Positions 32,999 to 35,247 of a stretch of 58,182 nucleotides of DNA are shown here, in pieces. Within the stretch, counting starts at the first letter, position 1; every line of letters starts with the position of its first letter. Source of the stretch: Thermoanaerobacter sp. A7A (GTDB taxonomy: Bacteria; Bacillota; Thermoanaerobacteria; Thermoanaerobacterales; Thermoanaerobacteraceae); NCBI RefSeq assembly GCF_000445185.1, contig NZ_AVAF01000087.1, positions 1-58,182 on the forward strand. The letters are read 5' to 3'. The notes under the pieces were generated by a model. It saw only the letters and a list, made by a program, of their open reading frames with translations. It was not told the origin of the DNA and ran no database searches. A program made the translations under genes and the position numbers.

Positions 32999-34048
32999 TC
33001 AGACTACAAAATGAATGATAAAATATATAACTAAACCAATTAAAGATAGAGGAATTCCTACCAAAGCCCATTCACGGCTTTTTATATTCAGCTTTCCTGC
33101 TGATATGATATTAGGTATGTTTCCTGGAATCAACATGCCGCCACTTATTAGAAGCCCCATCAATATTGCTTGGATTTGTTCTGTTGTCATGTGAGGAGAA
33201 ATTTCGGCTGCTGCCAGTGTTGCGTTGTCAAGAACTGCAGATAGCATGTTTATCCAGTATAAAAGTCGGCTATCAAGATGAATTATATAATTATCAATAA
33301 TAGGTTTGAATCCTGCACCTAAAAGTTCCAATGCCAGAATAAAAACAAAAATTTTAAATGCTTGAATAAAGATAAATTGAAATCTTTCAATTTTTTTAAT
33401 TTCTTCTGCTTCTTTCACATAATTTTCTTCTATAATGAGACTACTTTTCTCTAATTTATTAATATAAAGTAAACCCAAAAAGCCCAAAGCCAATACAGCT
33501 GGTATGATGTAAATGCCTAAGGTAGTAAAAAGGTAAAGGAAGCTTTCATTTAATTTTGAGGTTACTATTGTGGCTAAGGGCTCGCCAATTGGTGTTAGTG
33601 CAGCACCCATGCCTATTGAAAGAGAGGCAATGACAGTAATCACCACTTTGTCTTTGTGTTTTAAGGGCAACGAGTGAATTATTTCCACTAATATTATTGA
33701 GGCTATGATGGCTGTAATTATACTGGCTGTCAAGCCAAGGATAATAATTACTAAAAATACAAATATTTTAAGCGGAATATGAGTTACTACTGTTCCTATA
33801 AATTTTTTAAATTTATTTTTAAATATCTCAAATAAAAGTCCTGATAAAAATACGGCTGCTGTTATTAAATACAAAAGATGATTTTTAAATATGTGAGCTA
33901 TCAGGTCATAAGAAAATACTCCTGATACAAATGCTGCAGCAACTCCCATTGCAAAAAGAAAATATTCGATGTTGTGTTCTATATGCCTATTTACAAGAGG
34001 CAAAATTAGGATCATTAATAATATTACTAAGAGTGCAACAATGACCAC
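32999..34048 (-). CDS. DUF1646-like ion transporter
   Basis: This 349-residue protein has about 10 membrane segments. Paired motifs GMGAALTPIGEPLATI and SAVLDNATLAAAEI, plus GGMLIPGNIPNIISAG, resemble the ArsB/NhaD-type ion transporter superfamily and especially DUF1646. GTG start, 7 bases after GGAGG. Its leader contains a structured RNA (see 34060-34196), and a CaCA exchanger gene lies upstream on the same strand. Na+ or another cation is the likely substrate (inference). Confidence 0.78.
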   Translation of the reverse strand: MVIVALLVILLMILILPLVNRHIEHNIEYFLFAMGVAAAFVSGVFSYDLIAHIFKNHLLYLITAAVFLSGLLFEIFKNKFKKFIGTVVTHIPLKIFVFLVIIILGLTASIITAIIASIILVEIIHSLPLKHKDKVVITVIASLSIGMGAALTPIGEPLATIVTSKLNESFLYLFTTLGIYIIPAVLALGFLGLLYINKLEKSSLIIEENYVKEAEEIKKIERFQFIFIQAFKIFVFILALELLGAGFKPIIDNYIIHLDSRLLYWINMLSAVLDNATLAAAEISPHMTTEQIQAILMGLLISGGMLIPGNIPNIISAGKLNIKSREWALVGIPLSLIGLVIYFIIHFVV

Positions 34049-34059
34049 AATCCATCCTC

Positions 34060-34196
34060 CTTTTACATTATTATTTGTATTATTTTGTAAAATAAAAGGT
34101 GGAAAAACTCACCTTTAAGATGAGCTTCCCACCCAAGAAGCCGAAAGTTCTTGAACAAGTCATAAGACTTGCCAACCGTAAAAACTTTATTTACTT
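34060..34196 (-). promoter_or_regulatory. Structured leader RNA, candidate DUF1646-type Na+ riboswitch
   Basis: Between promoter and GTG start, the minus strand carries a stem (CAAGTC-TTAT-GACTTG) next to GGTTGG, a second small stem (AAGAA..TTCTT around CTTTCGGC), then GGGTGGGAAGCTCATC. It ends in AAAGGTG / CACCTTT followed by TATTTTAC. GGTGGGAA can alternatively pair with TTTTCCACC, which would break that terminator-like stem. Known Na+ riboswitches (DUF1646 motif) precede DUF1646 genes. I could not check the motif consensus. Confidence 0.55.
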
Positions 34197-34202
34197 TATT
34201 AA

Positions 34203-34232
34203 AATTATAACATACAGGTATTTATATAAGCA
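34203..34232 (-). promoter_or_regulatory. Promoter of the DUF1646-like gene
   Basis: On the minus strand TATAAT (34203-34208) stands 18 bases after TTGCTT (34227-34232). It supports separate transcription of this gene from its own leader, after the CaCA gene ends at 34252. Confidence 0.5.
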
Positions 34233-34251
34233 ACAGAGATGAAGATATAAA

Positions 34252-35247
34252 TTAATGGAGTACAGTGATTAAAAATATTCCGTATAATACTCCTCCAAAC
34301 ATCAACACAAAAGGATTAACTGACTTTCTCATATTTATCCACATTAAATTTAAAATAGCTGAAGTTAAAGCTAACATGGCACTTAAAAAAGCTATTCCTG
34401 TGATGTTCCATGGCGTAAACAGTATACCAATAGTAACTGGTATGGAAGGCTGAAACACCATCGCCCCCGTTATATTTCCAAGTGCAAGAGTATCCTTTTT
34501 TTGTCCTACCCACACAATAGAATTGAGCTTTTCAGGCAGTTCTGTTGCAATAGGCGTTATGACAATTGAGAGTATTAAAGGTGAAATTCCCATCATGTGA
34601 GACAAATCTTTTACATATCCTACAAACAAGTGAGCGCCAAAAATTATTCCTAAAAGAGATAGAATTAATTGGCTGGTTATCCAGAGTAAATTAGTTTTTA
34701 CTCCTAAAAACTTTGAAAAGTATAGAGTTCCTATATTTTCATCCAATTGCTGTTCATCTGAAAAAGTACGTTTTACATAAAAAGCGTATGCTAAAAGTAC
34801 CAATATAACTGCAGATATTCTAATTTCGTTAACTTGATTAAAGATAGAAGCGAAAATTGCTATTGCGTATACTAAGATAAAATATGTCAAATCTCTTTGA
34901 AACACTTTTTTATTTGCATTCATTTTCAACGTTCTTTTTCCAAAAAGGGAATAAATTATGATGGCAGCACCTGTTATCAAAAATCCTAAGGTAGAAAGCA
35001 TAAAGGGAGCTCCTAAAATAGCACCTGTGGCTATTTGACTTGCCTCTCTTCCTCCATAAAAAAGTATAGCGATAATTGGTATAATTGTTTCAGGAAGTGC
35101 GGTGCCTACAGCAGCTAAAATACTTCCCACTACTCCCTGACTTAAGTTTAACTTTTTTCCAAACCATTCTACTGAGTTTGTAAATAAGATACAGGAAAGA
35201 AGTATAAAGGCGAGACTAAAAAGCAACATCACTATATCTTGTGTCAA
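34252..35247 (-). CDS. Na+/Ca2+ exchanger (CaCA) family membrane protein
   Basis: This 331-residue protein has two homologous membrane halves, with the alpha-repeat motifs GTALPETIIPIIAI / GAILGAPFMLST and ATELPEKLNSIVW / GNITGAMVFQPSIP. This is the CaCA exchanger signature. A charged loop (about 160-175) joins the halves. Start is TTG at 35247 with AAAGGAG 9 bases before. It probably exchanges Na+ (or H+) for Ca2+ or another cation. Confidence 0.85.
   Translation of the reverse strand: MTQDIVMLLFSLAFILLSCILFTNSVEWFGKKLNLSQGVVGSILAAVGTALPETIIPIIAILFYGGREASQIATGAILGAPFMLSTLGFLITGAAIIIYSLFGKRTLKMNANKKVFQRDLTYFILVYAIAIFASIFNQVNEIRISAVILVLLAYAFYVKRTFSDEQQLDENIGTLYFSKFLGVKTNLLWITSQLILSLLGIIFGAHLFVGYVKDLSHMMGISPLILSIVITPIATELPEKLNSIVWVGQKKDTLALGNITGAMVFQPSIPVTIGILFTPWNITGIAFLSAMLALTSAILNLMWINMRKSVNPFVLMFGGVLYGIFLITVLH

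Follow-up and report, generated by a model that had tools for sequence, protein, structure and literature searches.

Does the DNA in front of a DUF1646 gene in Thermoanaerobacter sp. A7A encode an RNA that senses Na+, and if so, how would that RNA control the gene? The gene (32999..34048) lies on the minus strand of the window, i.e., the whole stretch of 58,182 nucleotides that was analyzed, and an initial annotation had placed a candidate Na+ riboswitch directly before it. RNAs of the same architecture have been shown to act as Na+ ON switches, in which Na+ binding stabilizes the P2 stem, blocks a terminator, and switches the gene on (White et al. 2022, PMC9337991). By analogy with that class, from which we take both the Na+ ligand and the ON direction, we are highly confident that the leader RNA belongs to the Na+-I (DUF1646-motif) riboswitches and works as an ON switch at the level of transcription.

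The aptamer itself is readily recognized. The Rfam covariance-model scan suggested in the initial annotation was run on the whole window (cmscan against Rfam 15), and it returned a full-length match to RF03071, the Na+ riboswitch aptamer or DUF1646 motif, at 34177..34123 on the minus strand. This match spans all 55 model positions (1-55 of 55), scores 58.1 bits vs a gathering cut-off of 40.5 (E 1.9e-9 in the 58-kb window), and is the only one in the window above a gathering score. According to the Rfam alignment of the window sequence, the 55-nt aptamer (34123..34177) comprises a P1 stem (34151..34175), with the conserved UCAAGA at and after its 3' base, and a P2 stem with a GGGUG loop (34123..34142), whose pairing is also seen over 17 leaders (see below). 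The nucleotides conserved throughout the class, namely CAAGA at the P1 base and GGGUG in the P2 loop, are present. The two stems noticed earlier fit the RF03071 consensus, and the conserved-looking segment, GGGTGGGAAGC at 34134-34124 (minus strand), proves to belong to the loop and 3' strand of P2, which are conserved. No other riboswitch family was found in the leader with Rfam at E up to 1, the sub-threshold snoR99 and RAGATH-11 hits being chance matches only, and a genome search found no Na+ aptamers beyond this single copy.

Could such an RNA have kept the Na+-I fold while its ligand drifted to another ion, e.g., Li+ or Ca2+? Altered specificity of some representatives was left possible by White et al. 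(2022, PMC9337991), and a gene of the CaCA (Na+/Ca2+ exchanger) family adjoins the leader. Against this, the conserved core is unchanged, Rfam revealed no second riboswitch family in the leader, and the representative from a Thermoanaerobacterium relative, T. thermosaccharolyticum, was reported as selective for Na+ by in-line probing (White et al. 2022, PMC9337991). We consider a drifted ligand very improbable; what the analogy with its class predicts for the Thermoanaerobacter copy is selective binding of Na+ in the low-mM range.

The leader appears to have a promoter of its own. The promoter that the initial annotation had attributed to the gene can be read by eye on the minus strand as a putative site (34204..34233) with a -35 TTGCTT at 34233-34228, an 18-nt spacer, and a perfect, TG-extended TATAAT -10 at 34209-34204. 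This site was missed by a consensus promoter scan because the -35 is poor, fitting the consensus at only three of six positions, and this weakness counts against the best explanation. The TGn-extended -10 is found again in Thermoanaerobacterium leaders (TGATACAAT). From the start near 34197 that the -10 predicts, the 5' leader would run for ~149 nt (34049..34197), in agreement with the earlier estimate of about 150 bases, up to the GTG start codon at 34048. It contains a Shine-Dalgarno sequence AAGGAGG (34056..34062), its fold as a whole has a z-score of -3.9, and the gene starts 74 nt downstream of the aptamer.

Between the aptamer and the gene lies the expression platform, an intrinsic terminator hairpin (34097..34134, minus strand) of 16-17 bp with one bulged U, followed by the U-tract UUUAUUUU (34089..34096). 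Its 5' arm is the 3' strand of P2 and, because this strand is used in both helices, P2 and the terminator are mutually exclusive. The idea of a terminator-like stem that can be broken by alternative pairing was thus well founded: apart from a terminator scan and the compensations discussed below, it is backed by shuffling, in which the hairpin reached -21.3 kcal/mol with the P2 strand held fixed vs -9.0 +/- 2.4 (sd) when the downstream sequence was shuffled, and none of 300 shuffles equaled it. In the ligand-free RNA, as soon as the hairpin has been transcribed, the terminator state has an advantage of 7-11 kcal/mol over the range of 37-60 C. OFF is therefore the default, and the aptamer, which is made first, needs locking for read-through to occur. 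Two shorter hairpins, CUCAUC/GGUGAG followed by UUUUU and AAAGGUG/CACCUUU (34116-34095), scarcely use the P2 strand; they might terminate transcription despite bound Na+, which counts against a switch. Both are weak, with -7.7 and -7.0 kcal/mol at 37 C and only about -2 left at 65 C. The AAAGGUG/CACCUUU hairpin (34095-34116 in the window), a second terminator-like element of the platform that makes no use of the P2 strand, is present in Thermoanaerobacter leaders and not evident in the other genera.

The competition between the two helices can be followed across 17 leaders, i.e., that of the window and 16 others that come from its own family or from more remote Bacillota. A terminator overlapping P2 formed in every one of them (17/17), with 0-3 of 300 shuffles as good. 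Since P1 and the 3' arm of the terminator were misaligned between genera in MAFFT alignments, pairs were counted from the folds of the individual sequences. Over seven P2 pairs in 17 leaders, 116 of 119 P2 pairs are canonical, and 114 of 119 positions pair in the terminator, the latter count being biased toward pairing by its use of partners from predicted folds. The shared strand is variable at five of its seven positions, and P2 changes on both sides. In one leader (L024), a shared G has become A, its P2 partner has gone from C to U, and the terminator offers a U opposite it. This twofold compensation is the pattern to be expected of a strand that takes part in two exclusive helices.

These comparisons also bear on two other ways of reading the hairpin. 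It could be nothing more than the intrinsic terminator of the CaCA gene, with an aptamer match that is incidental or decayed, and indeed CaCA has no other obvious terminator after its stop (34252) and before the leader. Yet Thermoanaerobacterium has the same aptamer-terminator before DUF1646 with CaCA located elsewhere, the aptamer of the window stands 17.6 bits over the cut-off with its class-defining nucleotides kept, and pairing is preserved in both P2 and the terminator, making this account hardly credible. Alternatively, the aptamer could bind Na+ and control translation, in that formation of P2 would free the pyrimidine-rich CCACCUUUUAUUUU to pair with UAAAAGGAGG and so mask the ribosome-binding site. 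A near-complementary CCACCUUUUA/UAAAAGGAGG match is used in the full-leader fold constrained to contain the aptamer. However, purine-rich ribosome sites readily pair with U-rich tails by chance, all 17 leaders keep the terminator, and Na+ would become an OFF signal, contrary to the published direction; we judge translational control very unlikely. The transcriptional ON switch remains our preferred reading. Its aptamer, mutually exclusive hairpins, covariation, and gene association were shown by computation.

The association with the gene holds across relatives. Within the order, the aptamer occurs in 16 of 24 genomes, which are the same 16 that carry an intact orthologue of the DUF1646 gene (63-100% identical). 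It is absent where the gene is absent (G011, G019) or survives only as a remnant (G007, G010). In Caldanaerobacter subterraneus (L009:2120-2830), one deletion took the riboswitch together with about the first 109 DUF1646 codons; the leftover is a pseudogene with stops and frameshifts, and the upstream CaCA gene is intact. A genome search at the class level yielded no additional aptamer-positive genomes.

The CaCA gene deserves separate mention, as its position just upstream had been cited in favor of the riboswitch. The gene is real (34252..35247, minus strand; PF01699, 80 bits) and immediately adjacent, and it has its own promoter-like site at 35326-35297; no aptamer precedes it in the cmscan of the window. 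As support, it carries little weight, and we dropped it: the adjacency is specific to Thermoanaerobacter, CaCA lies elsewhere in the family's third genus, taken to be Thermoanaerobacterium, and in one genome CaCA is degraded with the riboswitch and DUF1646 kept. Because it is adjacent only within Thermoanaerobacter, CaCA is placed outside the system.

What does the regulated gene encode? The 349-aa product matches PF07854 with 487.5 bits and is 99% identical to its counterpart in Thermoanaerobacter wiegelii, to which the genome of the window is very close. DUF1646 is a gene of sodium biology, as the class expects (its other targets include NhaD-like and oxaloacetate decarboxylase genes), and together with the RF03071 score this bears out the proposal of a Na+ riboswitch before a DUF1646 gene, with Na+ as the probable ligand by class. 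We found no solved structure for DUF1646 by sequence and no NCBIfam model for it. An AlphaFold2 model built from 13 homologues (pLDDT 72, pTM 0.74) matches NaS1 (Z 26.0, 323 residues), NaDC3 (Z 24.5), ArsB (Z 23.9, 325 residues), and VcINDY (Z about 19). The predicted fold is thus that of the ion transporter (IT) superfamily, which supports a transporter, the substrate of which we infer. A Na+/H+ antiporter function is predicted for DUF1646, as it also was by White et al. (2022, PMC9337991).

Taken together, the switch most likely works as follows. RNA polymerase would initiate near 34197 and make P1 and P2 first. At high cytoplasmic Na+, the ion would join the P1 base to the P2 loop and lock P2, thus keeping its 3' strand out of the terminator and allowing read-through into the DUF1646 gene. 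At low Na+, the terminator (GGGUGGGAAGCUCAUC ... GGUGAGUUUUUCCACCU, then UUUAUUUU), being the stabler structure, would capture the P2 strand, and transcription would end. The product, a membrane protein with a predicted ion-transporter fold, would then export Na+, probably by Na+/H+ antiport, both the transport activity and its direction being presumed here.

The same genome encodes a second DUF1646 paralogue (59% identical) without an aptamer, at L070:10840-11862 (G000:C10:40839-41858). This gene forms the 3' end of a complex-I/Mrp-like operon, the other products of which are MnhB, NuoK/MnhC, two Mrp/NuoM-type antiporter subunits, NuoH, NuoB, NuoC, NuoD, and NuoI-like proteins. The [NiFe] CxxC motif was not found in the NuoD-like subunit, so the complex is probably not a hydrogenase. 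The arrangement suggests that DUF1646 has an ion-pumping complex of the complex-I/Mbx-like kind as its working partner. We tentatively propose, as a possibility that we hold to be somewhat doubtful, that DUF1646 proteins are IT-superfamily Na+/H+ antiporters used in two modes per cell, with a riboswitch-controlled copy on demand and a complex-I/Mrp-like operon copy coupling proton and sodium gradients.

Na+ aptamers in other genomes precede other genes as well. One distant genome (G223) has three tandem Na+ aptamers before a diaminopimelate dehydrogenase gene (L071:5637-5992; G223:C61:45636-45991), two above the Rfam cut-off and the third below, each followed by a terminator-like hairpin. Such a three-aptamer tandem could steepen the Na+ response. 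Na+/c-di-AMP tandems are described by White et al. (2022, PMC9337991) in their main text, a text search of which turned up no mention of tandem Na+ aptamers. Elsewhere (L057:120-1400, L068:57-1337, L055:1752-3056), Na+ aptamers lie before CitMHS/ArsB-type transporters and an oxaloacetate/pyruvate carboxylase subunit; the L068 aptamer, before a CitMHS/ArsB-type transporter, is below the cut-off.

In short, a rare riboswitch class could be recognized from a sequence-only reading, and the locus offers an example from a thermophile in which natural covariation cleanly records the competition between aptamer and terminator. It also suggests that Thermoanaerobacter places one of its two DUF1646 transporters under a Na+-sensing RNA. 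With the published Na+-I riboswitch (PMC9337991), the leader shares the full aptamer consensus, the P1/P2 arrangement, a terminator competing for the P2 3' strand, and a DUF1646 target. It differs in the terminator 3' arm, which in Thermoanaerobacter has several G-U pairs and one bulged U, and in the U-tract, which is interrupted (UUUAUUUU) rather than consisting simply of six U in a row. The DUF1646-motif RNA of Thermoanaerobacterium thermosaccharolyticum M0795 (Extended Data Fig. 4, PMC9337991) comes from a related thermophile and belongs to the same aptamer class; it has been probed experimentally, whereas the one in the window was analyzed by computation. The Na+/c-di-AMP tandem before lysine 2,3-aminomutase in Dehalobacter sp. 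CF (PMC9337991) has the same Na+ aptamer and terminator design, a design found also in L059, L061, L062, and L066; unlike this tandem, the leader in the window is without a c-di-AMP aptamer. Published work already covers this class with its architecture and its link to DUF1646, and the Thermoanaerobacter copy is a well-formed, ordinary thermophile example.
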